A DNA stretch of 64,000 nucleotides from Enchytraeus crypticus. Taxonomy: Eukaryota; Annelida; Clitellata; Enchytraeida; Enchytraeidae. Below are positions 15,642 to 62,269 of the stretch, one piece after another. Positions within the stretch are counted from its first letter, which is position 1; each line of letters begins with the position of its first letter. The translations under genes and the position numbers were made by a program. The stretch spans positions 231,501 to 295,500 of the forward strand of contig CAJHZI010000512.1 in the NCBI GenBank assembly GCA_905160935.1, given 5' to 3'. The notes below the pieces were generated by a model. That model worked only from the letters and a program-made list of their open reading frames with translations, was not told the origin of the DNA and ran no database searches.

Positions 15642-18600
15642 ATGGATAAGATGGACACCCTCAGCACAAGCCCTGCCATCACACATCTGGACAACTCTAC
15701 CCTAGACCTCTACCTCTCAATCATCTACTTCGAGAAGGTCCTCAGCATTGCCGTGCCTGTCTTCTTCACCATGATAGCCCTCCTGGGATTCGTTGGGAAC
15801 TTGATGGTTATAGCGGTGGTTATATCTAACAGTCAGATGAGAAATACGACTAATCTTCTGATCATATGTCTGGCCATTGCAGACCTTCTCTTCATCATCA
15901 TCTGCGTGCCGTTCACTGCGATCACCTTCGCTATACAGATCTGGCCGTTTGGCAGCATCTTCTGTAAGGTTGTATCAAAAGCCATAAAAAGCTAAAGTTA
16001 ACGTCAGTTTCCTCACTCGAATGCGATGTCTGTGTCGGACTAGCCCAGGATTTGAACCCCGCACATACTGATCCGCGGTCGAGTACGTTACCGACTTCGC
16101 CACTGGTTCCAGCCAGTGTGAAAGTCCTTTAGTTTTGATTTTTAGGCGGCTTCCGTCAATACTGATTCATAATATTTAGATTTTAATCATTTTCATTTTC
16201 GCTCTTTCTTCTCGTTCTTTAAAGGCAGTACACGAAGAGGATTTCATACGGGGTTTGCCAGTAAATAATGTTTCCTTTTCATAAATCTGGTTCATGATGC
16301 CTAACTATAGTCCACATGTAGATTATTTATGCAAGCATAAGCAGCGGTACTTTTTGCAATAGTATAGCATAGTATGCCGCGATACAGTGTGTCATAGTAC
16401 AGTGTAGCACACAGCAGTAATTTAAGCCATAGAATTGCAAAGTAAGCTGTGGCACGGTATTCCATAGCATAGCATAGTATACTGCGGTACGGTATGCCTT
16501 AGTATAGCACAGTAAGCTACGGTACGGTATGCCCTAGTATATCATAATATGCGGCGGTATGAAATGCTATAATATAGCATAGTACGCTACGGTACGGTAT
16601 GCTGTAGTATAGCATAGTACACAGCATTATTTACGCCATGGTATAGCACAGTATGCTGCGGTACGGTATTCTATAGTACAGCATAGTATGCGGCAGTACG
16701 GCATGCCATAGCATTACATAGTATGCTGGAGTACAGTATGCCATAGTATAGCATAGTATACTTTGTACGGTATGTCATAGTATAGCGTAGTATACTTTGT
16801 ACGGTATGTCATAGTATAGCATAGTATACTGCGATACGGTATGTCAGAGTACAGCATAGTATACAGAGGTACGGTATGCCATAGTATAGCATTATGAGCT
16901 CATCCCGAGTCTTTCGTGGCCCTCAATCCCTCATATGTATTTTAGATTTACATTAAACATTTATAGAATTTGTTTTCATTGCAAGCTTGGACCACAGCGA
17001 AACTTAATTATTGTCAGTTTGCATGCGCAGTACAACCGAATTAATTGACTGGAAATGATTCAATGAATCGCACCTGTATACTCGCTCAATAGTGGTACGA
17101 TGAGGTGGCTTTGTTTAAAATCTGCTCTCGTTCCTGGCACATATAAAACTCATTTATAAATATCGATGCTCTTTCCTTGGTATCGTTGAATACATTTACA
17201 TCTGTAGCCCGTCACTGACATCGCTTTCGAGTGATGAAACTGACGTTAACATTAGCTCTACTAGTTTAACTTTTACCTGACGCCTCCATCCGCTGTGCTA
17301 TTTAGACATTTTGTTAAACACTATAGATGGATGGTGAAATATCGGCGCACAGTATGTTTTTAATATTTATTTGTACACGTATCAGTTTATCAGAAATCTT
17401 ATTCAAATCGCAGTCTTATGCGCAAAAGAAAAATTCTGAGATGAGATATACATGGAAGAGTTGCTTAGCATGAACTTGATACTAAAACTAATAATATCAA
17501 AAATTAGAGTGCTAGAGTCATCAATGACAAAATCGAGCACTATGGAGACAAAATCAAGCCAGCGAGCAAAAAGAAGGTCCAAAAACGGTGCAAATTCCAA
17601 AACCCAGAAAATCAGTCCAAAGATACATGTAAAGGGAATTAAAGAAAAGGAGGTTTAGGCGCTAGTCGCAACTCTTGGACACTGGATGGAAAAAAGAGAT
17701 GGAAAAGGTATACTATAGGTATTCACCTGCCTATGGAACTAGGCTCTAGACTGAACTGCCAATATTTATCAGATCTTTTTTTCTGCTTGTGTGATACAGG
17801 GACGTCCCTGACATCATCATCCGATGAAGAAACGGACTTTACACATTTATTATTATTATTATAATAATTATTATTACTATTACTATTGATGAGGATAATA
17901 ATAATTATTATTGTTTTTAACCATCGGCATAAAGAACCCGGGTTTGATTAAAGCGATTCGAGCAATACGTAAATAATCGCCGCCCGGCTACTCGAGGTCA
18001 TCTAGCGACTTAAAAGAATTGCTGAAGCAATGTGCATGAAATCTTTGCAAAGTTTTATTATTATTATTATTATTATTATTGTTATTATTATTATTATTAG
18101 TCATCTTATTTACATTTAACACCTTTATTTGTACTGTTTATCCAGGTATATCAGTACGCCATTCACGTGACAGCCTATGTGAGTGTCTACACCCTGGTAC
18201 TCATGTCTCTTGATAGATACCTGGCTGTTGTGCATCCCATTCGATCCATGACCCTGAGAAATCAGCGCAATACGTTCATCGCAATAGGCTCTGCCGTTGG
18301 GCTCATCCTGCTCCTGAACGGTCCCACGCTGATGGATTTCGGTGTGTACGAGTTTGTGGACTTCCTCGGTGAGAATCGATCCATGTGCATCCACATGGGA
18401 ACCGTTAGCGCTGACCACTCCGACACATTTGCTTTCTACCTGTAAGTATTGATCAATCAGTCGACCAATCTATCAATCGAACAATCAATCAATCAAACAA
18501 TATATAGATCAATCGATATATCAATCGATCGATCTATTAATCAATCAATCGATTGATCGAGCGATCGATTCATCGATTCATCGATCACTCAATCAATCAA

Positions 18601-20694
18601 TCAATTAATGAAATATTAATTGATCGATATGATCAATCTATCAATCAATCGATCGATCAATCAATCAATCATGAAATCAATCGATCGATCGATCCATCGA
18701 TCAATCAGTCAATCAGTCTATTAATTAATGCAAATAGTGTTAGTGAAATTATAAGTTGGATATATGAAATAAACTGATACTCCAAAGACATAACTGAATG
18801 TCGTTCAACAGTATCTAAATCAACATTAATAATTTATAACGAGTTAATGAGCTAGATCCATATTACTTTTCACGCTTCCCTGTATACATGTATGTTACTA
18901 TGATAAGAATGGCATTTAGCGCCAGCTGGTCATATATCTAAATACGTTTCCAGTGATTAGTTTTCTTGACATGTATTCACATATTTTAAGCAAGAGGGCT
19001 TAACTAGGTTAATATTTCTGAGATTCTTTGATTCAACCAAGACTTTGTTTACTTCTAGACTTAGAATGCAATTTAGTATAAAGAGTTTTATTTGAAAAAA
19101 TCTTTTATAAATTTATGCCATTTTCTGTATATAAGTTGTGAACTTAGGTTAATTTTAAGTGGATGCCAGTTTTCATCTGGTAGTTAAATGTTTTAAGCGT
19201 TTTAAATGTTATCCCTCTCCGTGTCGACCCCGAATAGGGATTAACGGAAGTTTAAATCATCTAAACGGAAGTTTTTATTTGCTGCAGATGTTTCTTCACA
19301 TTCGGCTACGCCGTCCCACTAGGACTGGTGATCCTGTTATACGGACTCATGCTGTACCGGCTGCTCTATGGAATGCCTCGTACCGGATCAGGGCGTCAGT
19401 CAGCAGAGAGCGCAAAGAGCAAGAGACGAGTTACCAGACTGTGCGTCGTTGTCGTCAGCTGCTTCGCCATCTGCTGGCTTCCGCTACAGGTAAATTAATC
19501 AATCAATCAATCAATTATTCTATTCTAAGCTTCCACTACAGGTAAATCAAATCAATCAATCAATTAATTATTCTATTCTATGATTCCCTACAGATAAATC
19601 AAGCAATGAAACAAGTAGTGAATCAATCAATTTTTCAATTCTAAGCTTCCACTACAGTTAAATCAATCAATCAATCACTTCGTGAATCAGTTAATTATTC
19701 TATTCAATTCTCCCAGTACAGGTAAATCAATCAATCAATCAATCAATTAGTGAATCAACAATTATTGTATTCTGTGCTTACACTACATGTAAATCAATCA
19801 ATCAGTCAAGTCAATTATTCTAATCTATGCTTCTGCAACAGGTTAGTAAACTGAAGCTTGCAGTGATACCAAATTTCAAATATAATATTAATACCAAAAT
19901 TTCAAATAAGTTTATACCGAAGCCTTCGATGAATCGTAAGCCTAATCTTGAAATTGCTCCTGCTGGTATAACGAGTTATATATTTCTAGTTGTTATTGTT
20001 TATAGTAGTATTTTACCAACTGTTGTTCTTATGTTTGTGCAATATATTATATATTTTTAATTGTTGTTGTTGATATTAGTATTCTACACAACTGTTGTTC
20101 TAATGCTGGTGTAACAGATCATATATTTCAAATTATTGTTGTTTCTGCTAGTATCTTACACAACTGTTGTTCTAAAGATGGTGTAAAAGATCATATATTT
20201 TTATTATTGTTGTTTTCAATAATCTTTTTACCCATCTATTGTTCTTGTTATTTTTGATATTAGTATTCTATACTACTCTTGCTCTCCTATTCGTACCACA
20301 GATCATATTTCTCCAGCAGTTTGTTATCGGGATGTCCAACGAGGCACAAGAAGGAAACTTCCTCGTTGTGGCTAAGGTCGTGTCCAACTGCCTCGCCTAC
20401 CTTAACAGCTGCGTCAATCCCATCCTCTACGCCTTCCTATCCGAATCCTTCCGCAAGAGTTTCAAGCGACTCCTCTGCAAGGAGCAGGAGAAGGCGGATA
20501 GGTTCCGGAGCTCTCCCATGGAACCCTCCAGGTGGGTCCGGGTGGAGAAGTCCCGAGTGGAGACGATGGAAGAGGGAGGGGTGTGCGGACCTCTGATGTC
20601 CAGTAAGGGAAGTTTGGTGGAAAATCTGGAGGTTAACGGAGTGGGGAAGATGAATGATAGATTGATGCCTCCAAGTGTTACCTCCATTTTGTAA
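15642..20694 (+). CDS. Allatostatin-A / galanin-type G-protein-coupled receptor, 4 exons
   Basis: Predicted neuropeptide receptor (class A GPCR, plasma membrane). Exons: 15642-15968, 18146-18441, 19288-19489 and 20302-20694, with the TAA at 20692-20694. The joins keep frame and give 405 aa. Seen: an N-terminal NST glycosylation sequon, TM1 with GNLMV, TM2 with [17 protein letters not shown] before TM3, [13 protein letters not shown] (the DRY region), an extracellular-loop-2 Cys in [10 protein letters not shown]6 [10 protein letters not shown]7 [11 protein letters not shown], and a basic start to the C-tail ([13 protein letters not shown]). Family knowledge: the stretch [20 protein letters not shown] is characteristic of allatostatin-A receptors and their galanin-receptor relatives. 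Galanin-like is the alternative name. The exon 1 donor (AAG|GTTGTA) is weak but is the only one that restores the family alignment. The ATG used is the first in frame after a run of TGATCAATA repeats. A 5' non-coding exon cannot be excluded. AATAAA at 20724 or 20843 could be the poly(A) signal. Confidence 0.9.
15985..16118 (-). mobile_element. SINE family A, copy 3, just after the GPCR exon 1 donor
   Basis: Full-length, minus strand. Its 3' end lies only ~15 bp downstream of the weak exon 1 donor at 15969, inside intron 1. Confidence 0.8.
16345..16895 (+). repeat. ~35-bp minisatellite in GPCR intron 1
   Basis: Unit AGTATAGCATAGTATGCTGC-GGTACGGTATGCCAT, about 15 copies. Confidence 0.85.
17203..17265 (+). 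mobile_element. SINE family A, tail fragment
   Basis: Only GCCCGTCACTGACATCGC through GACGTTAACATTAGCTC remains; plus strand, GPCR intron 1. Confidence 0.65.
17799..17868 (+). mobile_element. SINE family B tail
   Basis: In GPCR intron 1; GACGTCCCTGACATCATC... with a (TTA)n end. Confidence 0.65.
18449..18730 (+). repeat. (ATCA/ATCG)n tract after GPCR exon 2
   Basis: Imperfect tetranucleotide repeats begin within 10 bp of the donor at 18442. Confidence 0.85.
19476..19850 (+). repeat. Tandem copies of the GPCR exon 3 donor junction
   Basis: The exon end CTTCCGCTACAG|GTAAAT and following ATCA repeats recur ~6 times (CTTCCACTACAGGTAAAT near 19531, others near 19583, 19650, 19712, 19780, 19832). 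GT is intact in about four copies. Unit ~50-65 bp. Confidence 0.85.
19970..20320 (+). repeat. Tandem copies of the GPCR exon 4 acceptor junction
   Basis: The junction CACAG|ATCATATTTCTCC has ~100-bp-spaced copies upstream: GTAACAGATCATATATTT (~20112) and GTAAAAGATCATATATTT (~20184), plus a weaker one near 19970-19990. They are separated by ATTGTTGTT and CACAACTGTTGTTCT blocks. Confidence 0.75.
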
Positions 20695-20985
20695 CAATGT
20701 TTCAATCGTGTGATCAGCAAATCAATAAATCAATAAATAAGTCATCTACTCAGCTAATTCATCAATCAATCATTTAACCAATAATCAAGCTCACGAAGGA
20801 GACGAAACTGACGCTGACGTCAGCTGTGCAGCCATTACAATCAATAAAAAGGTATAAATAAACTTCCACAGTTCGTCCATCAATCAATCAATAAATCAGT
20901 CAATGGATCAAGGTTTTAAGGAGTTGTTAAAATTAGACTGATGCCTCATAGTGTTACCTCCATTCTGTAACAATGAGTCAACCGC

Positions 20986-21118
20986 TAAAAAGCTAAAGCT
21001 AATGTTAACGTCAGTTTCCTCACTCGAAAGCGATGTCAGTGACGGGAGAACCCAGGATTTGAACATCGCACATACTGATCCGCGGTCGAGTATCATGCCG
21101 ACTTCGCAACTGGCTCTA
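20986..21118 (-). mobile_element. SINE family A, copy downstream of the GPCR
   Basis: Full-length minus-strand copy ~290 bp past the GPCR stop. Near-identical diverged tail pieces (GAGACGAAACTGACGC) also occur at 20790-20830 and 21255-21290. Confidence 0.78.
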
Positions 21119-21299
21119 GTTCGTGCGATCAGTAAATCAATAAATCAATCAGTCATTTACTCAGCAAATCTATCAATCTAATCGATAAGAATATTGTGAA
21201 TTGTTATGATAGCTAATCATTTAATCGATAAATCTATAACTGATGTCACTCTCGAAGGAGACGAAACTGATACCGACATCAGCTTTACAGCCTCTACAA

Positions 21300-22043
21300 T
21301 CAATGAATTAAAGATGAGATAATTAAAAATCTAAAGTTCGTCCATCCATCAATCAATCAATAAATCAGTAGATGGACTAAGTTTTAACGTTGTCGTTATT
21401 ATTATAATTTAATCTTGGCTTAATTCCCCGTGTTGTGTCCGGATTGCTTGAAGAATTAGCCAACCGTGTACATATGCACGTGTAGCGAAATTGGACTTTC
21501 GCTTTTATTACGCTTGTTGCATTAAACCAGTATAAATTTGTACGCTTCCGTAAACTGGTAGAGATTAAACGTAGCACCAGTTTAGGGATTTTTCAAGAAT
21601 ATAAAAATAACCATAAATATCAATATTAGAGATAAAGTTGAGCTAGTGATCAAAGGAAAACTCTAATTCGTTAGCGATTCGTGTAAAAAAAAGTAGATAT
21701 CATTGGTTGTAAATGCTATAATGTACGTAGGTGGCCTATATTAAATTAGAAAGACGTTATATTAAATTCGAGGAAAAGTCAGTCAAACGCTATAGGAGGT
21801 TATAAACGGTTTTATCTAGATTTGTGTATATTTCGATAAGGTGCTGGGGAACCCAGTGGATAGGGCGCCCCAGCGCTATTAGTAGGGGTGTCGAATTTTC
21901 GTGACGAGCGGCCAACTTCTGGTCGGTGACTTGCTAGCAGTTGCCGGTCGGAAGATAGCGCCAATCTGAGCACTATACAGACACGACAGCATTTTTTCTG
22001 TGAAATTTGGCAGGGTGGGACATCAAAAAGCACCCCTCATAGA

Positions 22044-22097
<54 letters not shown>

Positions 22098-22100
22098 CCT
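21300..22100. other. Intergenic; possible old element at 21840-22020
   Basis: The block GAACCCAGTGGATAGGGCGC...GGGACATC is GC-richer than its surroundings and may belong to the LINE-like element that follows. Otherwise unassigned. Confidence 0.4.
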
Positions 22101-22762
22101 CCAAGTGTTTTCCAACAAATTAGGGGAGATGGCCGAACAAAACACAGATAAAAGGCCAGTGTCCCAAGCCTCCTCTATGTCGAACGCGGGACTTACCCCC
22201 GATTCAGGCCGTGACGACCTGGCACGAGACCTGAATTCCCACGAACCCACCAATAGGGCAGAGGCCATAGCCCTAACACAGGCGGGAGACAAAAACATTC
22301 CCACCTTTAGTCGTGACGATCTCGGCGCAGTAGTAGAAAGCGGACATTCACAATTGGCCGAGTTCCTAGGCCTTTCAATAACCAGGAACACACAAGCCGC
22401 TGACCCAATTATCCAAAGGTCATACTACCACAGCCCATTAGCTCAGTGGGTGGATGGGGAAGCCCTAACCAACAAAAACATTTAATGTTGGAGGGAGCTG
22501 AGCAATACCGGCGTCCAAGACCAAGCTATGACCCCAATGATATGGGAAGTGTGCACGCACAAGCCGAGCGTTTCGCGACAGCACATATCGTAGAAGGCAA
22601 CATAAAAACTAGATCTAGACCAACTCCAGAAAGGGCATTCGGTTGGTGATCGCGCCTAGGCTAAAGAATTGCTACAAAAACTTAAAAGAATGGATTGAAA
22701 GTCTATTTGTATTCCGACCCTGGTGAAACTGGGATTTAGGGGAAGACGACGATGATGAATAT
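22100..22762 (+). mobile_element. Longest copy of the (GAT)n-tailed LINE-like repeat
   Basis: A two-part remnant: a GC-richer block with a broken open frame (MAEQNTDKRPVSQASSMSNA..., to 22485), then the common 3' part (GCATTCGGTTGG...CCTAGGCT...GACCCTGGTGAAACTGGG) ending in GACGACGATGATGA. Short GAT-type tails are typical of RTE-like LINEs. No reverse transcriptase is visible, so that assignment is inference. Its left border follows a (TA)n tract. Confidence 0.55.
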
Positions 22763-22797
22763 TGGCTTTGACGGATCAGCCAATGCCAAAGACTATA

Positions 22798-24419: not shown

Positions 24420-40988
<16,569 letters not shown>

Positions 40989-40997
<9 letters not shown>

Positions 40998-46161: not shown

Positions 46162-46194
<33 letters not shown>

Positions 46195-47767: not shown

Positions 47768-48573
47768 GTTAGTGTTATGTAGATGCTACATGTGTAGTAA
47801 GGTAGATGATCATAAAGGAAGAGCGATTTGAGAAATGCTAATTACACATAATTATACTCTGCTTACACATAATTAGAAAGGCAACGGGAAACCACCTCAG
47901 AATCCATAGTTTTCCAAAATAGGCTACATAAGGTATGGATAAGGCATAGACTTTGTGAAGGGATTAACTTGTTGATCTAAGGAGTGCTTATATGGAGCGA
48001 GAAAACAGACTTTGAGTATGAATATGTACCTTGAACCTGCCACTTGACAGCGCACTGAGGAAGAAGACAAATAATTACACTATAATTTTATATTCACGAT
48101 GAACCAATTAATAAGAATTTGTATCGTCTGTCGAATGAAATGTTCTGCCTTCTTCATAACATCATCGTTGACGAACCATCATTCGATGAATTCATAAATC
48201 AATGAACCGTCATTCGATGAATGAATTATTCATCTGATGAATTGATTGTAGAACGAGTCGGCTCTGAGCCTGACCGTCCCGTGCTGATGCTCTGCCCTAG
48301 GACTCAGGTCCTGCACATCCTCGGCCTCACTCCCCTAGACCAGGACCTCAGGGTCCTCGTCGACCCCAAGGAGGACTGCCCGGACCTCGCCCTGCTCGAG
48401 GCCTCGGTGCGGCAGGGCTGTGAGGGGCTGCGGAGCTGCCTCGTCGATCACTCGCGGCTGATCACCTCAGAGGCCTGCCCTAGAGTAGCCTACCTCTCCG
48501 TAGATACCTTCTGCTTGGGTAGCACCTCTGATCTTCTTGTAGTTAAGTGTATATGTATAAATGTGTGTGTATA

Positions 48574-48629
<56 letters not shown>

Positions 48630-48690
48630 ATGTATATATATATATGTGTATTTATATATATATATATATATGTACACATATATATTCATG

Positions 48691-48733
<43 letters not shown>

Positions 48734-48917
48734 AAATATGTATATATATATATATGTATATATATCATAATACTAATACTAATAATAATAATAATAATAA
48801 AGGTTTAACGTCCGTTTCCTCATCTAGGAATGATGTCTAGGAGGATATATATATATATATATACATGTGTATATATAAATATATAATATATATATATATA
48901 TATATTATATTTATAAC

Positions 48918-48967
<50 letters not shown>

Positions 48968-51900
48968 TATACTGTTGCTGAACTGATACAGACCTGAACT
49001 GACACTGCAGCAGAACTAGCGTAGAACTGGTACTGGCGCTCAGCTGAATCAGTAGCATTGCTATACTTTAGAAGAACTGACTTACAACATATTGTATAAT
49101 CTACAGATTTAGTAATTTATTTCTATTTAAATTAATTTTTAAATTTGTTACTTTCAGAAATCGCTATAACCACCGCTACCACAACCACTTCTTCTACCAC
49201 AACAACAACAACAACGTCTGCCACGCCCTCTACTGAAACATCCAGCACGTTCTCTACTACTGTTTCCACAACGTTGTCTACAACGTCGTCTACTACGATT
49301 CAAACAACGATGCCTACAACGTTGCCTACAACGACTTCCAGTACAACCCCAACACCCACGAGAAATCCACTTCCGATTAATCCACTTAATATCCGTCTCA
49401 ATCCATACAAGATCATCTGCCAGGAAGTTCGGTTTCTGTCGGATAATTTCGACGACGAGGATTCAGAAGATGAGGATGAACGGAAGTCCACGGAGGGGAC
49501 ACTCCGGGAGACACTCCAGGAGATGTGCGCCAGACTGGAGAGTGGCTCCGTGCGGAGTGACCTTGAACGTGACTTCTTGTCGACGTACTGCCCGACTGTT
49601 GGTGCTGGAAAGATAAACAGGACAGAAGAAGAAGAAGAAGAGGAAGAAGAAGAACCTTCTACTGAAAATACTGGAAAGATAAATAGTACGCAAGAAGAGG
49701 AATCTACTACTGGAAATACTGGAAAGATAAATAGTACGCAAGAAGAGGAATCTACTACTGGAAATACTGGAAAGATAAATAGTACAGAAGAAGAAGATTC
49801 TTCTACAAAACATTCTGGAATGATAAATAGGGCAGAAGAAGAAAAATCTTCTACTGGAAATACGGGAAAGATAGGTAGGACAGAAAAAGAAGAATCTTCT
49901 GCTGGAAATACTGGAAAGGTAAATGGGACAGAAGTAGAATCGATAAAGAAGAAGAAGAAGGAAAAGAAAAAGAAGGTCAAGAAACTTGATAACGCTGAAT
50001 TAACCAAAGATCGGATGAACCAGAGGCACCGAAATCGAAAGAATAAGAAAAATAGAAAGAAAGACAGAAAAGAAAACAGTGAGAACACTGCAGACAATTG
50101 GTTATTTCTGGCGGCAGAACGAAAGCTGAAAGAATACAGTAAAATTAAGAGAGATAGTGGATTAGAAACCAGGCAGAGACGTAAGAGACAAGCAGTGGGG
50201 ATCGAGGACTCAATTAGCGGGAAAACTGTTGATGAGTCAATTAGCGGTAAAAATGTTCATGAGTCACTTAACGGGAAGCCGGTTGACGAGTCATTTAGCC
50301 GAAAAATGCAAGCTAACTTCTCCAGAGATTCTCAATTCGTTCATATGTTGAGAAATTTAGTATTGCAAGAGACTCGAGCAGCTAGGCAGGAATCTACTGA
50401 TAAACGTATTCCGCCCAGACATCCTGCTGAACAATTCGATAATCTTTTAAAATGGTACAGAAGCGGAAATAATGGTTTCGGCAGATTGATATCAGTGAAT
50501 CCGAACGACAAAATCTTTGCAGTCCTTTTGATTCCAGGGACTGCGGTACTGCAACATACTTCTGGATATCATGTTCTTATCGCCCGATCAGCACGGTATA
50601 ATTTTGATAGCTCAAAAAATGGGAAAAGATACGATTTCCTTGGGAAAACCCCCGATTACTCTACCATAACGAAAAGACGATATTTACGATCCGTTAATCC
50701 AACTGGAGTGGAGAAGGGAAGCCCTAATGGAAAGCTACCAGTGTCTGATCTGGAGTGCTCTGTTATGAAAGACGAAAACACTTGCTACTGTTTGAAACCT
50801 AAAGAATTACCGGAAACCCTTCGCAGGATTATTCAAGCCGTGGAGAGAACGGGAAATTCTTTGGTAGTGGTGGAAATGAGCAACGGAAGCAGGTTCTTCC
50901 GATTGCTTGATAGAATGTCGAACACGAACCGGTCGCCACCAATCAAAAGTCCAAAAAGTCGGGTAGAACCAGAAATGGAGAGAAATAGAGTGGAAAACAA
51001 AGGAGAGAATGCAAATACCGCCAAACCAAATTCCAAAGGTAGGAACGAAACGAGATTTAATACACCTGTAGATCCGACTAAGATTGGAAGGGCTGAGGAA
51101 GGAAGTACAAATGTGAAAGAAGCTATAGCAGCTGATGTTAAAGCTGCAGAACCTTCTGTGATTAAAAGTAATACCAAACAAGTAACGGAACATCACTCCA
51201 AGAAAAAAACTAAAACTAAATCCGGTAAAGGACATATTGCAAACACCCCAGGACCTGTCGTTGCTGATGAAAGGAAAGTGTCAAATGAAGTCAGTTCTAA
51301 AGAGAAGACTACGTCAGTGGATAGGACTAATAACAAAGCTGCATCAAATAGCATGCCAGCTATCAAAGACACTACAAATGGCAACGATAATAACAAAGAC
51401 ATCGCTAGTGGCAAAGCTAATAGCATAGTTTCTTCGAGTAGCAAAACCATTAACAAAACTGTAGCAAATAATGACGATACGAAATCTGTAGCGAGTAATA
51501 CTGTGGTTAACAAGGCGAGTAGCACGATTGTTAACAACGACACTACAAATGGCAACGATAACAGCAAAGATACCGCTACTAGCAAACCTAGTAACATAGT
51601 TTCTTCAAGTAGCAAAACGATTAACAAAACTGTAGCAAATACTAACGATAAGAAATCTGCAACGAGTGTGGTTAATAAAGCAAGTAGCAAGACTGTTAAC
51701 AACGACCCCAAAAATGACAACGTTAATATCAATGATAACTCTACTAGCAAAGCTAATAGCATAGTTTCTTCAAATAGCAAAACCATTAAAAAAACTGTAG
51801 CAAATACCAACGATAAGAAATCTGTAGCGAGTAACACTGTGGTTAACAAAGCAAGTAGCAAGCCAGCTGTCAAAGACATTACAAATGGCGACGATAATAG

Positions 51901-54667
51901 CAAAGACATAGCTAGTAGCAAAGCTAATAGCATAGTTTCATCAAGTAGCAAAACCATTAACAAAACTGTAGTAAATAGCAACGATAAGAAATCTGTTATG
52001 AACAATACTGTGGTTTCTTCTATTAACAAAGCAAGGACTAAATTTTCAGCTAGTGATAAAATTAACAGCAGTCCAGAAGGTAGCCAAACTTCTGAGTCAC
52101 TCTCTTCCAGTAAAGCTGATTCAGTAATCAAACAAGGCAGCAGCAATACGCAGTTCAATATTCAGAGCAATATGACTGAAGGGGATAAGCTAAGCTTATC
52201 GCTACGGTGTGATGTATTGAATTCGTCGACCAATTGCAACATATCCAGAGATGTAGGGGCACAGGGGAAGAGGAAAAACTCCAGTGCAGAGACAACCACG
52301 GACCCGTCGAGCATTCCGAGTCCACTGAATGGACCAATCCCAATTGCCACTCTGGACACACAACCGTCTAATGGTTCTGATATAAATGCAACGTCGGACG
52401 CTTTGCAACCTAAGAGTTATAATATAAATGCAACGTTGAACATTCTACAACCAAAGAGTTATAATATAAACGCAAAGATAGTCGGAGTACAACTTAATCA
52501 TTCAAACCAAAGTTCAACGCTAAGCGTAGTACAGTTTAACAATTCAAATTCAAATGCAACGGTAAACACAGTACAGTTAAACAATTCACATGCAACGGTA
52601 AACACAGTACAGTTAAAGAATTCAAATGCAACGGTAAACACTGTACAATTTAGCAATCCAAACGCTACGCTAGCGACAATGCAAAGTCAAATAAATGCGC
52701 TGACCAATCAGATGGAAGCCGAGCTGGCCGCTATTAAAGAGATATCAGCCTTAGCTCTACCCTCTCCTTCCATTGGCGCCTGCAGCATCACACCACTTAG
52801 GTGTGTCAATGGGGGAACCTGTCAGGACCAGCAAGGTTCTCCGGGTTACAGTTGTACCTGTCCATTCGGTTACGTGGGTAACCGCTGCCAAACTCGTCTT
52901 CGTCGCTGCCTGATGTCAGCCTGTCAGAACGGCGGCACTTGCGTGGAAGCCCACGGCAACGTGAGGTGCCTCTGCAGGAGGGGATACAAAGGAACATTCT
53001 GCGAGATCTTTGAGCCAGCGGCCTCCTGTACCATGACCACCTGTGCCTTTGGATCTGTCTGCCTCATCGTCGGTGGATTGCCCAAGTGTATCTGCCCGCC
53101 GGGTAGGTCTGGAGATCTGTGCGAGTACGCGAGAGATGGTTGCGCCAACGACCCTTGTGACCTATCGTCCACCTGCATGAGGACGACCCAGGAGCCGTAC
53201 TACTTCTGTCTGTGTGATCGACAGCACTTCGGACGTCACTGCGACTGGACGGTCATCTCTAAGTGCAGCCTCTCGTGTCAGCACGGCGGTATCTGCGTGT
53301 TCCGCCCAGAGCTTGGGCTAGGCTGCCTCTGTCCTTTGGGATATTCCGGACCTCTCTGTCAGGTAGCGGAGGATCTGTGCCTGAGCATGCCTTGCGGAAA
53401 CGGCGGAATCTGTCAAACTATGGCGTCAAATTCCTACGTGTGTTCCTGTGCGCAAGGATTTACAGGAAAGAACTGTGAGGAGAGGATTCCGTACGTACTC
53501 GGGATTGGAGTTCCTCCGCTACAGCCGTCCGCCATAGCAAACCGTAACCCACCCCGTCGCCTGGGTAGCATCGTCTGTGCCCTCAACACCTGCGCGAATG
53601 GTGGAAGATGCGCCGTGGTCGCTGGCAAGCCAAGTTGCAACTGTCCTCCTAACTACGGAGGTCCCATCTGCGCCGTCCTACTGACAGGTTGTGACAGTAA
53701 TCCATGTATGAACGGCGGCATGTGCATTGTGCATGATAGGACTGAGAGCAGTAGGGCTGGATTAGGTGGAAATGTTGGAACGACTGCTGGAAAAGTGGAA
53801 TTTGACTCTCAGATGGCTGGAAATAAATATCAGAAAGGCGGATCGTACCATCAAAAAGTTGAATATAACTCTCAGTTGGGAAAATCCAACCCACCGTTAG
53901 CCGCATCGAGCTCCAAGCAGGCTAAATCCCAGTCAAGTGGACTCGACTCTAAGACGGGTGTCTCTAAAGGGAAAACAACTACAACTGTTGAAGCACCCAA
54001 AACAAAAAATATCACCATAGGAACGTTAACGAAGACCGGTGAAGTTACCTCGCTTAGTGAGTCCAAATTGGGTGCCGGTCCAGCACTGGAGCAGGCTGAG
54101 GAAGCTTTGGATAGACAGGACCGTGGGACTTCCGGCCAGATGACGGAGTATCGATGTATGTGCGCCAGTGGATACTTTGGAAGTCACTGTCAGTATCGTT
54201 CAGCCGCCTGTCAGCCCGACACCTGCATGAATGGAGGAACGTGGTGAGTGCATGGACGAATTACGCCTTTAAAGTAAACACGCACTATAGAGAAATGATC
54301 AACTATGTTGCTATCTATCACTTTGAACACCACATGTTTAAACCGTTAGGGAATTTATTGTCCAGTTTCTATTACCAGTCCAGTGAATGTCTGAGATTTT
54401 ACCCTCAGATCAGCGCGTCTGGGATTCCCAGGAACCCAGGAAGGTTCAATTCACCTCAGGATCTGTCTTTTAAAACTGCATGACATTACCCCTACGCTAT
54501 CAAGACATTCAAAGAAACGCCTTTGTAGAAACGTTAAATGGAATGCCTATAATATAATATTTTACTGCTCTGGTTTGCTTTTCAGATTTAGTTTCAGCTT
54601 TTAGCTGAATGTTTCTTTTACTAATTTGGAAATATTGATAAGCTTAACTAATAAAATTTTTATAATA

Positions 54668-54707
<40 letters not shown>

Positions 54708-56559
54708 GTACTGACTCCTCTACACCCACACCCACGAATGCTTTTCAATAATAATAATAATAGTAAAGGTTAACGTCCGTTTCCTCATACAAGGATGATG
54801 TCAGGGACGTTATATAACCGATATCGTCATGAACGACTGTAGCACCTAATGCTGTGTGATTGCTTGCGAGCAGCCGAGCCTCTAAGTCACTGCCGGGCTA
54901 CCAGTGCAAGTGTCCCGTCGAGTACGCCGGTATCAACTGCGACATCTCCAGTCCGTGCCTGAGTAGACCCTGCCTGCACGGCGCAGGCTGCCAGGTCAAG
55001 GACGACGGTAGCTTCTACTGCTCCTGTCACTATGGTTACGCAGGACTGCTCTGTGACGTCAGAGTTCCGCTACAGCCTGGACAGGGTTAGTGTCCATTGA
55101 ATCCGGGATTTACTGGACAGGATTAGTATCCGCTAAATCCGGGATTTACTGGTCAGGATTAGTATCCGATAAATCCGGGATTTACTGGACAGGGTTAGTG
55201 TCCATTAAATCCAGGATTTACTGGTCAGGATTAGTATCCGTTAAATCCAGGATTTACTAGTCAGGATTAGTATCTGTTAAATCCAGGATTTACTGGTCAG
55301 GATTAGTATCCGTTAAATCCAGGATTTACTGGTCAGGATTAATATCCTTTCTGGACAGGGTTAGTGTTCGTTAAATCCGGGATTTACTGGACAGGATTAG
55401 TATCCGTTAAATCTAGGATTTACTGTTCAGGATTAGTGTCCATTAAATCCAGGATTAGCTGGACATGTTTAATGCGGATTTACTGTCCATTCACTCGTCT
55501 ACAATTAAACTAGACTACTTAATTTTTTGTCCTAAAATCTACATGTACTAACCGTAGTGCACTTCGCACTACGCTTTTCGCATTCTTCTGCCATAATACG
55601 TCACAGGTTTCGCACTGGCTACAGCCAGTGCGAAATGCACTGATTGATTGATTCACTCGTTTATATCTATTTTGCTCTGGAATTTTTTGATTGAGATTCA
55701 TTATTTCATTAGTTCATAACAATGTAGTCAATGCTTAGTTGGATAAGTATTTGAAGCACAAAAAGTATAATATAACTGAAGAGAATCTGTTTAAAACCAG
55801 TACTGCTGCTCCAGCTGCTTAGCTTCATTACTGCTTTACTTCAGCTTTATTGATTGATTGACTTATTTATTTATTTATTTATTTATTGAGTGAGTCAGTT
55901 ATTCATATATAGTGATTGTTTGAATGTTAGCTTCATTGATTGATAGAATGTGCTCTATCAGTATGAACCCGCCCCTATTCATCCTGTCCTCTACAGCCTT
56001 TTATAATTTATAATAAAAATAATAATACTAATAATAATAATTATTATTATTATAATTATAATTTTATAATAACTGATGAATGCATTGATTGCATACCCAG
56101 CCCCGCACGCGTGCCTAACCGACCCGTGTCTGAACGGCGCTGAGTGCAGACTGCTCGGCGCGGGTAAGTTCACGTGTATCTGCCCTGTGGGCTACAAGGG
56201 CGAGGCATGCGAGCAGCAGCTGCTCACTGCCTGCAGGTCCCAGCCCTGCCTCAACAATGCCACCTGCCTTCCCCACACCAGTGGCTTCCGCTGTCTTTGT
56301 ACCTCGGCCTACACCGGGCTCACGTGCGCCGAGCCTGCCGAGCAGGGGAACGGGCGCGCCCAGGCCGGGCAGGGGAACGGGCACGCCCAGGCCGGTGAGA
56401 GAGGGGACCAGCAGGAGCAGGAGAGGCTGCCGCAGTATAAGCACAATCAGGCCCTTCAGAAACAAATACAGGTGAGACGAAGAGGTTTTCGTTCAAAAAA
56501 GTGTAGTTGACGAGTTTATTTTAATAAATTTTGATTATATATTAAATATACAATCTCTG

Positions 56560-56618
<59 letters not shown>

Positions 56619-59600
56619 ATACTATTATATTATAAAACCTCTATGTTACTGTTACAATATAGAGGTTTTAGCACAAAATGTGTGGTTGAAGAGTTTTGCT
56701 TTGTTCTGGGAAAAGGCTATTATGATTGTGTCACAAGCAGTATCGCAGGCTAATCAGAATCAGCTGGCATACTCTTGTCACAGTCACTTATCAATAATCG
56801 CTGATGTAACTTTATTCAGTGGTGGGCAAGAAAAGTAGCCTAAAAGAAGTAATGAAGCTTTTTTGAAATTTTTCTTACATAAATAATTAAACTTTGTCGC
56901 CTAAATGGACAAAATAAGGACTTTTATTTAGCAACTTTTTGTTAATCCAGACATAAATATTTTCAAGAGTTCATGTTTTTACTTAGCCTATTCTAAAATG
57001 TTACATACACAACGTTTTAAAATGTTACATAAACAAGCATTTTAGAATAGCCTATTCTAAAATGCTAGGCTCATATAATAGGCACTATTAGATAGATTTG
57101 CATTATGTTGACTTTCCAATTGACAATTTGATTAATTAATTGATAAATTGATTAAATAATGGAGTACTATATTCATTGATTGATTGAGTTATTGGTCGAT
57201 TGATTAATTGACTGATTCATTTGACAAATTTTTCTGGTACAACAGAAGGAATCTAATCAGCTGGACAGCCAGCAGCTTAAGCTGGGGCAGCAAGAAGCTA
57301 AGCAGCTGGAGCGCCTACAGCTGCAGCAGCTGAAACATGACGAGAAGGAACAGCTGCTGATTGGTCGCAAGCAGCAGCTGCAGAGTAAGCTACAGCAGAA
57401 ACAACAGCAGCAGAACAAGCAACAAGAGCGGCTGCAGCAGCAACAACAACAGCTTCAACAGATGTGCGGCACAGTACGGTGCCTCAACGGTGGCCAGTGC
57501 TACGTTTGTGTTCACTTGTAATCTCCAGTTAATTAATTGAGTAAATAATAAGTAATTAATTGATTGACTGAGTAATTGATTGATTAATTAATTATTTATT
57601 TTGTAATTAATTACAACGATAGCCAGTGCTTCGTTGGCGTTTCACTTGTTATCTCTAATTTATTAATTAAATAAATAAATAAATAATTGATTGATTGAGT
57701 AATTAATTAGTTATTTATTATGTAATTAATTACAACGATAGCCAGTGCTTCGTTGGCGTTTCACTTGCTATCTCTAATTTAATTAATTAATTAAATAAAT
57801 AATTAATTGATTGATTGAGTGATTGATTGATTAATTAATTAGTTATTTATTATGTAATTAATTACAACGGTGGCCAGTGCTTCGTTGACGTTTCACTTGC
57901 TATCTCAAAATTAAGCAATGAATTAATTAGTACTTAATCAATTATTAATTAATTAATTAGTAATTTAATTACATCGTTGATCAGTGCTTAGTTGGTATTT
58001 AAACTTATTATCTCTAATTAATTAATTACTAATTAATTACAACGGTCCTTCGTTTGTGTTTTACTTGCTATCTAATTAACTAATTTATTTGTACATTAAT
58101 TATAAGAATGGACATTTTTTAGCACTTTCTGGAGCCTAGGCCCTCACCAACCCATTCTGACGTCGGTTTGGATATGAAATATAGTGCTATGTCACCTTTT
58201 GCGCAAAGTGCAGTTCACGGATGGGAAATTTTTCAGCAACCCAGGCACAATACTGCTAATATATAACATAATAATTACAGTAATATAGCACTGTAATTAT
58301 ATAGTATAATAATATAATATACTGTAGAAATATAGTGATATAATATACAGAAATAAGTTTCAAAGAGAGCATAAAATTAAAAACAATATAAACAACTATT
58401 ATATACATGTACGTATATATTAGGTTTATTATAAGTATTTGGTATATGAAGACCGGAATGAGTGTTGCTGGATTGTATAAAGTTCCATTCATATGTAGAC
58501 ATTTTTTACTAGTTTAGCTATTAATATAAATGTAATTGTTATTTAGCTTATTATTACTATTGAACACTTTCTGTAAAGTAGTCTCAAAGACCGAGTTTGG
58601 CCATGACACTGCTAAATAAGTTTTCGTTGGTAACAATAATAATTAATAATTAACTGTATTTATCTTTAATAATTAACTGAATTAATAATTAACTGTATTT
58701 TTTCAATAATTAACTGTATTTATTCTCTTATCTGTATTTATTCTCTTAATTGTCTTTATTCTCTTAACTGTATTTATTATCTACTCAACCTTTGATCGCT
58801 CAGGACACTAGCGGATCAGGACTGCTGTGTTTCTGCTCAGCCCGCTACACGGGTCCAGACTGTAGCGTGGAGGTCAGACCCTGCGAGTCTAACCCCTGCC
58901 TCGTCAACCACACGTGTGTGGAGGTCATACAGGCTGATAACATAGGATACAACTGCTCGCTTAAAGGTACGGGGTTGTGGGTACTTTTTATTTATTTATT
59001 TATTTAGATCACCAAAAGGGTCATTCAACCCTGTACAGTTCACAAGCAATGCAAACAAACAAGTAAATGCAATAAGTGAGCACAATTTAAATGTGAACCA
59101 TGGTGAACTTAAAACGAAAATGTAAAGTAGAAATTAAAGAATTGCAATAAAGAAATTCAAAATAAAGAAAATTAATGATAATAGGTACGCATAATTATAC
59201 ATTTAAGATCAGTATCATTAATAACTATTTAATAAGCTTGACGAAGATTAATATTGAAACAGTTAACGGAAGGACATGATCGTAAATTAGGTAGAAGGGA
59301 TAGCCAGTATCTAGGGCCTTGTACAGCGATATACTTTTCGCGACAGAGGGTTCTGAACGATGGTATAGTAAATTCCGAAACTTGTCGAAATTTATAAACA
59401 GAATTTACAACATTATTTAATAGCAACGAATAGTTGTAACATGAAGGCATATCATTATGAATAAGTTTATACAGAAATACGCAACAGCAATGTTTATGAA
59501 TATCACTTAACTTTAAAATTTTAAGTTCTTTAAATATATTGTTCGTATGACTACGAAACTCTGCATGTTGAATTATTCTAATTGCTCGTTTTTGAAGTAC

Positions 59601-62269
59601 TATCAATTCGTTGAGCAAGGTTTTAGAAGCGTTCCTCCAAACAATATTACAATAAATTAGATGCGGATATATTAGACTGTAGTATAAATTTAACATACAA
59701 TGTTTAGGTAACTCAGTTTTAACCCGATGGAGTAATCCAATGGATTTGGCTAATTTTTGTGCAGTATAAGAAATATGATATTGCCACGATAATTTTTCAT
59801 CAAGAATTTATGCTGCATTATCATCATCGTCGTCGTAATCGTCGTCGTCAGCACCAACATCATCATCGTCGTCGTCGTGGTCATCATCATCATCATTATC
59901 ATTGTCATCATTATCATCATCATCATCATTATCATCAACATCATCGTCGTCGTCGTAATCAGGACTGGTTTCATATGTAACAGGTTTAGAAGAACTAGTT
60001 TCATATGTAACAGGTTTAATTGGACTGGTTTCATATGTAACAGGTTTAGAAGGACTGGTTTCATATGTAACCGGTTTAGAAGGACTGGTTTCATATGTAA
60101 CAGGTTTAGAAGGACTGGTTTCATACACAACAGGTTTAGAAGGACTGGTTTCATATGCAACAGGTTTAGAAGGACTGGTTTCATACACAACAGGTTTAGA
60201 AGGACTGGTTTCATATGCAACAGGTTTAGAAGGACTGGTTTCATATGCAACAGGTTTAGAAGGACTGGTTTCATATGTAACAGGTTTAGAAGGACTGGTT
60301 TCATATGTAACAGGTTTAGAAGAACTGGTTTCATACGTAACAGGTTTAGAAGGACTGATTTTATATGTAACTTATGTTTCATATCATCATTGTATGAGGA
60401 AACGGACGTTAAACCTTTATTATTATTAACAGGTTTAGAAGGGCTTGTGGAGCTCCACTCTAAGGTCTCATCGGTGGAAAGTTTCGTCGTCTTCTGCATC
60501 TTCATCGTCGTCATCCTTTGTGCCTCTATATTGCTGTGCTACTCCTTCAACTGGTAAGTTGTCAATACTACTAGATACTCCTTCAACTGGTAAGTTATCA
60601 ATACTGCTTTGTTACTCCTTCAACTGGTAAGTTATCAATACTGCTTTGTTACTCCTTCAACTGGTAAGTTATCAATACTGCTTTGTTACTCCTTCAACTG
60701 GTAAGTTATCAATACTACTTTGTTACTCCTTCAACTGGTAAGTTATCAATACTGCTTTGTTACTCCTTCAACTGGTAAGTTATCAATACTACTTTGTTAC
60801 TCCTTCAACTGGCAAGTTATCAATATTGTTTTGTTACTCCTTCAACTGGTAAGTTATCAACACTGCTTTGTTACTCCTTCAACTGGTAAGTTATCAATAC
60901 TGACCAATATAAAAAATGCTACGCAGTATTTTTGCCATAATTCGTCACAAGTTAACGAAATTAAAACGACGCTAGACCTATATTTCGTGCCATTTCTCTA
61001 TTACATGTTTCGTCATGTGCGGACGACAGCATTTACTACATACCATTTTCTAATACAGTTCGGACATGTGCGGACGACAGCGTTTACTGCACACCATTTC
61101 TCTATTACAGTTTCAACATGTGTGAACTGAACAACAGCATTTACTTTATACCATTTCTCTATTACAATTTCGACATGTGTGAACGACAGCATTTACTCTA
61201 TACCATTTCTCTATTATAGTTTTGACATATGTGGACGACAGCATTTACTGCATACCATTTCTCTATAACAGTTTCGATATGTGCGGACGACAACATATAC
61301 TGCATACCATTTCTCTATTACAATTTCGACATGCGCAGACTAACTGCTAGTTCTATTCTGCCATAATACGTCACAGGTTAACGAGAATAAAACGACGCTA
61401 GACCTCTATTTCATGCCATTTCTCTATTACAGTTTCGAAATATAAGGACGACAGCATTTACTGCATACATTTCTCTAATAAAGTTTGGACATGTGCGGAC
61501 GACAGCATTTACTGCATACCATTTCTCTATTGCAGTGACGACTGCATTTACTGCATACCATTTCTCTATTACAGTGACGACTGCATTTACTGCATACCAT
61601 TTCTCTATTGCAGTGACGACTGCATTTACTTCATACCATTTCTCAATTACAGTGACGACAGCATTTACTGCATACCATTTCTCTGTTACAGTGACGACTG
61701 CATTTACTGCATACCACTTTTCAATTACAGTGACGACAGCATTTACTGCATACCATTTCTCAATTACAGTGACGACAGCATTTACTGCATACCATTTCTC
61801 AATTACTGTGACGACAGCATTTACTGCATACCATTTCTCTATTACAGTTTCGACATATGTGAACGACATCATTTGCTCTATACCAATTCTCTATTACAGT
61901 TTCGACCTATGTGGACGACAGACGAGAGTGAGCGACGACCGGGTGTACGAGAAGCTCGACCTGTGGGACGCCTGGACGACCAGCCCTCGTCTCACCCTCC
62001 AGGACGCCATCGTCCCCTCAGAGACCATCGTGGCCCGTCACCCTATCGTCTTCACCCAGTCCTCCAGCAGCGAGGGGGAGGTCCCCCGCAGCGAGCCTCT
62101 CCTCCAAACCATCCCCGAGGTGGACGATGCTGATTGGGGCAGACAAATGTGGAGCCCGGGCAGCCCAAGAACGTTTGGCTCTAACCTCAATCGAACGTCG
62201 AATAATAGAAACGCCGTGAGGTCGAAGCTGAGAACTAAAGTTAAGAAAACTCGACGACCGATTTATTAA
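47665..62269 (+). CDS. Large lectin/mucin/EGF-repeat type I membrane protein, 9 exons
   Basis: Predicted cell-surface protein of ~2316 aa; no close named homologue recognised. Exons: 47665-47767 (signal peptide, tentative), 48252-48518, 49158-54243, 54874-55085, 56101-56471, 57246-57503, 58804-58966, 60433-60553, 61900-62269. All phases match and the total of 6951 nt is divisible by three. Order: signal peptide; SUEL-type lectin domain (res. ~35-123); Thr-rich stalk (~125-198); acidic then Lys-rich repeats; RQRRKR furin-like site (~462-467); an unassigned region; Asn/Ser-rich repeats; EGF domains from ~residue 1331; a Gln-rich coiled-coil-like insert; last EGF modules; TM helix (~2172-2191); cytoplasmic tail. 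Typical EGF unit: C-x4-C-NGGTC-x-C-x-C-x2-GY-G-x2-C. This architecture suits adhesion or an extracellular coat. Ligand and role are unknown. EGF-domain continuity across introns supports exons 3-7 strongly. Exon 1 rests on phase and hydrophobicity alone. Confidence 0.85.
47875..48062 (-). repeat. Dispersed repeat F, second copy
   Basis: Reverse complement of 25937-26150. It ends just upstream of the lectin exon (48252). Confidence 0.6.
48252..48518 (+). CDS. Exon 2: SUEL/rhamnose-binding-lectin-like domain
   Basis: The acceptor is TTGATTGTAG and the donor G|GTAGCA; both ends are phase 1, the usual format of a shuffled extracellular module. The 89 residues carry the SUEL pattern: a first cysteine in [40 protein letters not shown], then [15 protein letters not shown]. 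Family knowledge: SUEL domains bind galactose or rhamnose through a loop near an N-terminal Glu and a late diglycine-like loop. The canonical ANYGR motif is missing here (HILGLTPLD instead), so sugar binding is uncertain. Confidence 0.75.
48782..48842 (-). mobile_element. SINE family B tail in lectin/EGF intron 2
   Basis: Minus-strand tail lying between two (TA)n tracts. Confidence 0.6.
49158..54243 (+). CDS. Exon 3: 5.1-kb exon with stalk, charged and Asn/Ser repeats and EGF domains 1-8
   Basis: One open exon of 5086 nt. From the start: Thr/Ser-rich mucin-like stretch (49160-49370); acidic [10 protein letters not shown] (~49450-49480); a Cys pair region (MCARLESG...YCPTVG); about six ~16-residue repeats of the [16 protein letters not shown] type (49608-49930); a Lys tract [13 protein letters not shown] (~49945); RQRRKR|Q at 50171-50188, a proprotein-convertase-like site; an unassigned globular-looking part ([17 protein letters not shown]..., 50450-50900); four ~57-residue Asn/Ser-rich repeats built on [17 protein letters not shown] (51350-52010); ~13-residue repeats of [12 protein letters not shown] (52500-52690). 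Seven EGF modules follow, then an eighth interrupted by a ~120-residue insert, and the start of the ninth. Donor ACGTG|GTGAGT splits a Cys codon of EGF 9. Confidence 0.88.
54266..54520 (-). mobile_element. SINE family C in lectin/EGF intron 3
   Basis: Nearly complete minus-strand copy, starting ~22 bp after the exon 3 donor at 54244. Confidence 0.75.
54749..54814 (-). mobile_element. SINE family B tail in lectin/EGF intron 3
   Basis: Minus-strand tail ending ~60 bp upstream of the exon 4 acceptor at 54873. Confidence 0.65.
54874..57503 (+). CDS. Exons 4-6: EGF domains 9-12, Gln-rich linker, start of EGF 13
   Basis: Exon 4 (54874-55085) completes EGF 9 ([13 protein letters not shown]) and holds EGF 10. 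Exon 5 (56101-56471) holds EGF 11 ([12 protein letters not shown]...) and EGF 12 ([12 protein letters not shown]...), then an Ala/Gly/Gln-rich tail. Exon 6 (57246-57503) is a Leu/Gln/Lys-rich, coiled-coil-like stretch ending in [13 protein letters not shown], the first half of EGF 13. The exon 6 donor is a weak TAC|GTTTGT. It is fixed by the next exon, which continues the EGF fold exactly ([17 protein letters not shown]). Confidence 0.85.
55076..55480 (+). repeat. 36-bp array copying the exon 4 donor of the lectin/EGF gene
   Basis: The junction CCTGGACAGG|GTTAGTGTCC continues into ~10 copies of GGATTTACTGG(A/T)CAGG-(G/A)TTAGTATCC-TTAAATCC. GT is kept in the copies near 55196 and 55360; others read ATTAG. 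Confidence 0.9.
57037..57065. other. Near-perfect 14+1+14 palindrome in lectin/EGF intron 5
   Basis: GCATTTTAGAATAG, C, CTATTCTAAAATGC. Half-copies lie just upstream (16 bp, ~56986-57001). Confidence 0.8.
57485..58060 (+). repeat. ~118-bp repeats copying the exon 6 donor of the lectin/EGF gene
   Basis: The exon end AACGGTGGCCAGTGCTAC|GTTTG recurs as AACGATAGCCAGTGCTTCGT at ~57615 and ~57732, AACGGTGGCCAGTGCTTCGT at ~57866, and decayed forms at ~57972 and ~58040. Each is followed by TTTCACTTG, TATCTCTAATT and TTAATTAAT runs. Confidence 0.88.
58108..58255 (-). mobile_element. (GAT)n-tailed repeat in lectin/EGF intron 6
   Basis: Minus-strand internal part (GAGCCTAGGCCCTCACCAA... to GCACAATACTG); the tail is missing. 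Confidence 0.55.
58804..58966 (+). CDS. Exon 7: second half of EGF 13 and a degenerate EGF 14
   Basis: After the acceptor GATCGCTCAG the frame reads [13 protein letters not shown], closing EGF 13, and then [12 protein letters not shown]...YNCSLKG. The last unit has the first four cysteines but loses the final C-x-C...C part and runs into the membrane-proximal segment, so it is probably a broken or partial EGF. The exon ends in phase 1 (AAAG|GTACGG). Confidence 0.82.
58986..59812 (-). mobile_element. 5'-truncated Jockey-like LINE, reverse-transcriptase C-terminus and 3' tail
   Basis: On the minus strand the frame reads [57 protein letters not shown] and [15 protein letters not shown], the thumb/connection region typical of Jockey/CR1-type non-LTR reverse transcriptases. 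It ends in a (TAAA)n tail (read as TTTA repeats at 58986-59007). The catalytic part is missing. It lies in intron 7 of the lectin/EGF gene in antisense orientation. Confidence 0.85.
59955..60365 (+). repeat. 30-bp array copying the TM-exon (exon 8) acceptor
   Basis: About 13 copies of GTAACAGGTTTAGAAGGACT-GGTTTCATAT. The real junction reads TTAACAG|GTTTAGAAGGGCTTG at 60432, and a SINE tail now separates it from the array. Confidence 0.9.
60376..60430 (+). mobile_element. SINE family B tail abutting the TM-exon acceptor
   Basis: TGAGGAAACGGACGTTAAAC is followed by TTATTATTATTAACAG. The element's TTA end forms the DNA right up to the exon 8 acceptor at 60432. Confidence 0.7.
60433..60553 (+). 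CDS. Exon 8: transmembrane helix
   Basis: The 121-nt exon starts in phase 1 and ends in phase 2. It encodes [16 protein letters not shown] and then a ~20-residue hydrophobic helix ([19 protein letters not shown]). Both boundaries are copied many times in the flanking introns: the start in a 30-bp array upstream, the end in a 37-bp array downstream. The acceptor sits just after a SINE tail of TTA repeats. Confidence 0.85.
60541..60905 (+). repeat. 37-bp array copying the exon 8 donor
   Basis: CTCCTTCAACTG|GTAAGTT recurs nine times after the true donor at 60554. Eight copies keep GTAAGT and one reads GCAAGT (~60813). Spacer TATCAATACTGCTTTGTTA. Confidence 0.95.
60985..61899 (+). repeat. Array copying the exon 9 acceptor
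   Basis: About 17 units of CATTTACTGCATACCATTTC-TCTATTACAG followed by TTTCGACATGTG-GGACGACAG or GTGACGAC. The true junction (61899|61900) is the last unit. Unit ~52-60 bp early and 39 bp at 61500-61820. Confidence 0.93.
61900..62269 (+). CDS. Exon 9: cytoplasmic tail
   Basis: Last exon, ~123 residues, GC-richer than its surroundings. It begins TG|T TTC GAC CTA TGT, giving [20 protein letters not shown], contains Ser clusters ([13 protein letters not shown]) and acidic EVDDADWG, and ends basic ([14 protein letters not shown]) before TAA. No SH2/PDZ-type consensus is obvious. The acceptor TATTACAG|TTTCGACC has many upstream copies. Confidence 0.82.

Follow-up and report, generated by a model that had tools for sequence, protein, structure and literature searches.

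The window, by which we mean the whole stretch of 64,000 nucleotides analysed here, contains three genes on the plus strand, whose hand-built models comprise 54 splice junctions in total (the preliminary description had arrived at 56). The first gene encodes a rhodopsin-type GPCR, presumably allatostatin-A-receptor-like, in four exons (15642-15969, 18146-18441, 19288-19489 and 20302-20691, then the stop codon). Its spliced frame of 405 aa carries a 7tm_1 domain (Pfam PF00001, E=1.9e-54). The second is a CaMKII gene of 18 exons (coding 24420..40997; our junction scripts set the end of its last exon at 40993, 4 bases before the end of the stop codon) with a spliced frame of 521 aa plus the last codon and the domains Pkinase and CaMKII_AD; its product aligns with solved CaMKII chains, for example PDB 2wel_A, a delta chain (E=3.1e-175). 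The third, an EGF-repeat gene of 8 coding exons (48221..62269, with an uncertain 5' start), has an open spliced frame, in which PF00008 (EGF) was found on one of the two pieces scanned, and by eye a hydrophobic segment can be seen close to the C-terminus of its product. In all three models, spliced at the outermost sites, the splice phases are consistent and the spliced frames are without internal stop.

Each junction in the window was represented by a query of 20 exonic and 20 intronic bases, which was compared with the rest of the adjacent intron and with 100 Markov shuffles as the null. Thirteen of the 54 junctions beat all 100 shuffles. At eleven of the 54, the copies span the border with at least 8 exonic and at least 4 intronic bases, compared to 0/101 windows from exon interiors; the acceptors of CaMKII introns 9 and 15 beat the shuffles, but match an intronic simple repeat only. 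At a score of at least 30, matches were obtained for 12/54 junctions, for 0/101 exon-interior windows and for 5/640 comparisons of junctions with non-adjacent introns of the same gene. This last rate somewhat disfavours introners, in which one repeated, intron-associated element is copied in many genes (PMC9860276), whereas each of the annelid arrays is copied from its own junction. Copies occur at both ends of 3 window introns, at the donor only of 3, at the acceptor only of 2 and at neither end of 19 (p=0.056).

In the GPCR gene, the positive junction is the donor of intron 3 (array at 19490..19802, plus strand as all arrays below), where 4 junction-spanning copies include 11-13 exonic bases and GT is kept in 2/4. 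At the other end of the same intron, a 72-bp tandem array (19961..20245) contains about 11 bases that resemble the beginning of exon 4. Three similar units can be seen, but the array is not significant as a junction array (p=0.07), and it is the one among the twelve junctions named in the preliminary description whose copies could not be substantiated, the other eleven being identical with our positives once EGF introns 4, 6, 7 and 8 of that description are taken as introns 3, 5, 6 and 7 of our model. The acceptor array of CaMKII intron 8 (31715..31880) is built from a 36-bp unit of 9 intronic and 27 exonic bases, the latter coding for GVILYILLV, a peptide that is identical in the solved CaMKII chains aligned. 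Given this agreement with solved chains, the exonic parts of the CaMKII units represent old coding sequence, and the direction of copying therefore is from the exon border into the intron. CaMKII intron 10 (33040..33113) harbours a single copy each of the donor junction of exon 10 (33040-33058) and of the acceptor junction of exon 11 (33076-33113); the latter lies 17 bases after the former, resulting in a miniature of the intron's own two ends. Intron 17 of the same gene contains a donor-junction copy (39944..39975; 27/32 identical) and an acceptor array (40645..40893) of 3 junction-spanning copies, with AG kept in 1/3. A weak case had been suggested for CaMKII intron 14: with a longer window its acceptor (38098..38227; 58-bp units, about 2 copies) reaches p=0.002, yet with only about 6 exonic bases.

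The remaining positive junctions belong to the EGF-repeat gene. The donor array of intron 3 (55077..55465) consists of 7 junction-spanning copies of a 36-bp unit, of which 2 keep the donor dinucleotide, and the donor array of intron 5 (57610..58075, end coordinates by eye) of 3 copies with 19 exonic bases, spaced by 119 and 132 bp. In the acceptor array of intron 6 (59960..60380, ends by eye), a 30-bp unit is present in 12 copies, 11 of them with AG. Intron 7 is affected at both ends, by a donor array (60554..60905, end by eye) of 9 copies of an approximately 37-bp unit (GT kept in 8/9) and by an acceptor array (61000..61899, start by eye) of 18 copies with units of about 52 and 39 bp (AG kept in 15/18). 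The term minisatellite, as used in the preliminary description, is appropriate for eight of the eleven junctions, which have at least three copies; the single copies at both ends of CaMKII intron 10 and at the intron 17 donor are better regarded as duplications.

We then sampled the 524-Mb assembly, in which searches with profiles yielded 137 exon places for protein kinases and 81 for myosins. On 4.3 kb of its mitochondrial contig C802, the genes nad3-nad2-cox1-cox2-atp8-cox3 (names by our reading) follow each other in one direction, as is usual in annelids. For Enchytraeus crypticus, a genome with 35.4% GC and a mitochondrial gene order like that of Lumbricus have been published (PMC8460440). 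Outside the window, the sample comprises 26 stretches (260 kb), which were hand-picked for likely multi-exon genes and thus are not random: 20 stretches of 10 kb cover 26 kinase places and 6 cover 29 myosin places. Most of the borders outside the window come from a purpose-written exon finder, trained partly on the window genes and used at a threshold of 13 for the kinase and 9 for the myosin stretches. Applied to the window itself at a threshold of 12, it recovered 18/24 internal exons exactly and 21/24 at least partially, with 9 predictions outside genes; false exons would dilute the rate of junction copies. Before counting, we removed low-complexity matches, windows containing N, cases with less than 60-100 bases of flank and matches that did not cover the junction by 6 or more exonic and 4 or more intronic bases.

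Copies were found at 25/323 junctions in the 26 stretches outside the window (binomial p=4e-8) and, with the window included, at 36/377 (9.5%), namely at 15 donors and 21 acceptors. In this sample of the annelid genome, junction copies are thus spread over many genes and affect donors as well as acceptors. For the 20 kinase stretches, the counts were 7/90 donors and 11/91 acceptors, with exon interiors at 0/420 and 3/424 and, for introns and flanks, one-sided array edges at 71/3836 and 67/3834; under other filters, at a score of 34, 19/185 junctions compare to 4/857 interior windows in these stretches. Among exons confirmed by the profiles, 11/100 junctions were positive (kinase 7/50, or 8 when a low-complexity case is counted; myosin 4/50); exons of the myosin stretches that were predicted but lacked such confirmation gave 3/86, with 0/42 donors.

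One alternative is that we are dealing with ordinary minisatellites, which are abundant, arise uniformly and overlap junctions by chance. Tandem repeats are indeed plentiful in this DNA (TRF lists 188 rows for the 64 kb, overlapping ones included), and many arrays in the window introns do not touch any junction. As a control, we therefore determined the chance of an intronic window, situated between predicted exons and no closer than 150 bp to any of these, being the outermost unit of an array. Such edges were found in deep introns at 56.5/2666 positions (2.1%, mean of left and right edges), as opposed to the 9.5% at junctions, a ratio of 4.5 (bootstrap over loci 2.9-6.7; binomial p=1e-13). 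The density of edges peaks at offset 0 (donors 13/118, acceptors 14/119), stays raised for the following 100-150 bp, amounts to 0-3% at 200-300 bp into the intron and stays below 2% from 60 bp into the exon; it rises again at 300-340 bp for acceptors (3/105, 5/105 and 4/104) and at 400 bp for donors (3/98). Mere tolerance of arrays at borders cannot lift them above the level of the intron, and the excess of array edges at borders makes random overlap a very unlikely explanation in the sample. Among the 377 junctions, arrays overlap exon borders more often than expected by chance, and the recurrent duplication seeded at exon borders, which the preliminary description had proposed, is supported by this enrichment, by its peak at the junction and by the presence of at least one junction array in 18 of the 29 genes or stretches (11/29 have none).

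An excess at borders could also arise from survivorship: births would be uniform, and arrays at borders would last or stay recognisable longer, with the exon copy, held by selection, re-seeding the array. As the exonic copy is kept by selection and intronic copies drift, an array of some age is more readily recognised at a border than inside an intron, which counts against reading the excess as birth at the border; the most similar copies should be the least affected by this. The ratio, however, is 9.0 at a score of at least 60 and 7.1 at 66 or more, compared to the 4.5 at score 34, although these two classes comprise only 14 and 6 junctions, respectively. Since the excess is not smaller among the most similar copies, it does not result only from easier recognition of old border copies. 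The arrays themselves speak for both sides. In the 12 arrays with at least 4 copies, likeness to the junction (mean 0.83) equals or exceeds likeness among copies (0.78; p=0.11), a comparison favoured by the fact that the copies were found by their likeness to the junction, and likeness decays strongly with distance from the exon in three arrays (rho -0.95, -0.82 and -0.85; negative in 7/12). In 4/12 arrays (three of the EGF gene and one of sampled stretch L012), on the other hand, copies are more like each other than like the junction, so that among these larger arrays some have their most junction-like copies near the exon and others are internally homogenised. We consider survivorship as the whole explanation unlikely; nevertheless, a higher birth rate and a better survival of border arrays are only partly separated by these data.

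Altogether, 141 junction-spanning copies were collected at the 36 junctions, with 6-40 exonic bases (the query being cut at 40) and a spacing of about 20-165 bp; at least three copies are present at 18/36 junctions and a single one at 12/36. Identity to the true junction is 88.4% in the exonic and 89.6% in the intronic part. The splice dinucleotide is kept in 116/141 copies, compared to 2709/3590 for other dinucleotides (per-array p=0.03), and a positional control gave the same direction (96/117 vs 3234/4248). The drift of the copies is thus close to neutral; splice signals are retained weakly at most, and weak selection on the copies is possible. Array-bearing and other junctions do not differ clearly in splice-site strength (donor p=0.08, acceptor p=0.64).

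These figures also bear on the suggestion that selection keeps the copies, as extra splice-site modules aiding splicing or providing regulated alternatives. In its favour one may cite the retention of splice dinucleotides (82% vs 75-76% for others) and the reading frames of the acceptor arrays: in three of the four tested, CaMKII intron 8, EGF intron 6 and EGF intron 7, the extension upstream of the exon is open in the exon frame (31632-31853, 222 bp; 59791-60432, 642 bp; 61390-61899, 510 bp), and in the fourth for 60 bp. Same-frame use of an inner acceptor in these three would thus insert peptide repeats rather than a stop. However, a stop-free unit with a length divisible by three easily gives open frames, the excess of dinucleotides is small (five of the seven EGF intron 3 donor copies are without GT), the exonic and intronic parts are about equally diverged, and read-through on the donor side reaches a stop within 1-5 codons in 4/4 arrays tested. 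We therefore regard maintenance by selection as quite unlikely.

A different origin is conceivable, in which introns were gained when exonic AGGT sites were duplicated in tandem, and the copies are what remains of this gain. For lancelet globins such an origin has been proposed (PMC3087553), and in a potato RdRp gene a tandem genomic duplication carrying splice signals is reported to have created a new intron (PMC4974935). The annelid arrays, in contrast to the potato case, lengthen introns that already exist. Moreover, where copies are confirmed at both ends of an intron (CaMKII introns 10 and 17, EGF intron 7), those of the donor bear no relation to those of the acceptor, which shows that each border was duplicated separately and leads us to reject intron gain from one duplicated segment for these three. 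The intron positions of the CaMKII gene look ancient, as we assume from vertebrate exon sizes. As a general explanation, intron gain appears highly improbable.

An artefact of the assembly is scarcely conceivable as the source of the arrays. To be sure, the assembly is a hybrid one, to which 80.6% of the PacBio reads map back (PMC8460440), and a 2,092-bp stretch is present twice at 100% identity. As the preliminary description had argued, divergence between copies speaks against an artefact, the copies being about 11% different from the junction. In addition, the paralogous kinase genes of stretches L014 and L015, situated on different contigs and identical at 438/498 exon bases, share, by eye, a homologous acceptor array with different copy numbers (the L014 array was left out of the 36 as low complexity). 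Arrays can consequently outlast gene duplication. The twofold 2,092-bp stretch, which contains a dioxygenase gene and lies on contigs C14 and C710 (stretches L032 and L033), is either an assembly duplicate or a very recent duplication. The genome includes a dioxygenase domain such as isopenicillin synthases have; in E. crypticus, isopenicillin is reported as a horizontal acquisition (PMC8460440).

Runs of tetranucleotides were counted within 80 bp after donors and before acceptors in the window and in stretches L003-L022. AATC runs are found after donors at 8/124 compared to 41/3279 in the background, and GATT runs, their complement in orientation, before acceptors at 15/124 compared to 77/3279. 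They are associated with the arrays: a GATT run lies near 7/21 array-bearing acceptors but only 15/181 others (p=0.003), and an AATC run near 5/15 array-bearing donors as compared to 4/187 others. ATTT (7/124 vs 24/3279) and AATT runs (5/124 vs 36/3279) are raised after donors as well; the AATC/GATT pattern is therefore not specific. Judging by their complementarity, AATC and GATT runs at the two intron ends could pair in RNA, and the pattern recalls zebrafish introns, which reportedly carry complementary repeats.

Taken together, the junction copies probably are equivalents of the 'mirages' known from lancelets, that is, mostly tandem duplications whose unit spans the exon-intron junction and which grow into the intron, being recurrent, seeded at the border, tolerated through use of the outermost site and subject to near-neutral drift. 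Our sample shows arrays that are anchored at the junction and in excess at borders, copies that drift nearly neutrally, ends that were duplicated independently of each other and an association with tetranucleotide runs in the flanks. Slippage or template switching would produce local tandem duplications, and these would found new arrays at exon borders with a higher frequency than in the remainder of the intron; short simple repeats next to the splice site may contribute. Duplications that include the border would be tolerated because splicing keeps the outermost copy, and the extra copies would then turn over by unequal exchange, with changes of copy number, and by drift. A wider and more doubtful proposition, though a possible one, is that certain animal lineages, among them lancelets and this annelid, have hot spots of mutation by tandem duplication at their exon-intron borders: some process tied to borders, for example breaks linked to transcription or splicing, or the adjoining simple repeats, may keep copying junctions into introns. 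If so, it would supply intron growth and cryptic splice sites genome-wide.

In lancelets, minisatellite-like tandem duplications across 5' and 3' exon-intron boundaries, with units of 10-160 bp, were described as mirages in globin, Adh3, TnC and PGBD5 genes; RT-PCR results point to regular splicing there, and Adh3 is cited as somatically unstable (PMC3087553, PMC3902484). Both the lancelet and the annelid arrays consist of tandem copies with exonic and intronic parts, both affect 5' as well as 3' boundaries, and in both many, not all, copies keep AG or GT. As far as the available text goes, mirages were studied in a chordate and gene by gene, whereas the annelid arrays concern about 10% of the sampled junctions and are accompanied by a test of positional enrichment. 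Internal tandem repeats at exon-intron boundaries, with units of about 30 bp, also modify introns in segmentally duplicated human genes (PMC2812944). The 27 human intron modifications are in recently duplicated genes, most of them with alternative transcripts; the annelid arrays instead reside in conserved genes (CaMKII, kinases, myosins). A search of one open-licence literature collection for junction arrays in annelids found no report, and the genome paper of E. crypticus (PMC8460440) contains the word 'intron' a single time. The structure is already known from lancelets; as far as this search shows, its occurrence in another phylum, the larger scale of sampling and the test of position are new here. 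Arrays of this kind offer a tractable system for studying intron growth, the origin of new splice sites, the choice of the spliceosome among near-identical sites and differences in mutation at borders, and they are a warning for gene predictors, which meet ladders of plausible splice sites inside them.

Several other repeated or mobile sequences were noticed in the same genes. Exon 2 of the EGF-repeat gene contains coding minisatellites at 49643-49939, 51364-52015 and 52380-52669, with units of 48, 171 and 36-42 bp, all multiples of three. Two reading frames of 164 and 127 aa in CaMKII intron 4 (27058-28091) resemble a mobile or domesticated gene in decay; a Pfam scan of these frames gave no match above the cut-off. 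EGF intron 6 carries at 58985-59807 a young LINE-like fragment with, by eye, a reverse-transcriptase-like frame on the minus strand, which shows 95-98% identity to at least 39 other places in the genome. When the EGF gene stretch was compared with the genome, no junction array was encountered elsewhere among the 40 of 6496 candidates that were scored, 39 of which were taken up by this LINE. Finally, a dispersed element with a tRNA-like stretch (near GGATTTGAACCCCGCACATACTGAT) recurs in introns of different genes (16000-16120, 32520-32650 and 38350-38480 in the window, and in L015) and, by eye, looks like a tRNA-derived SINE.
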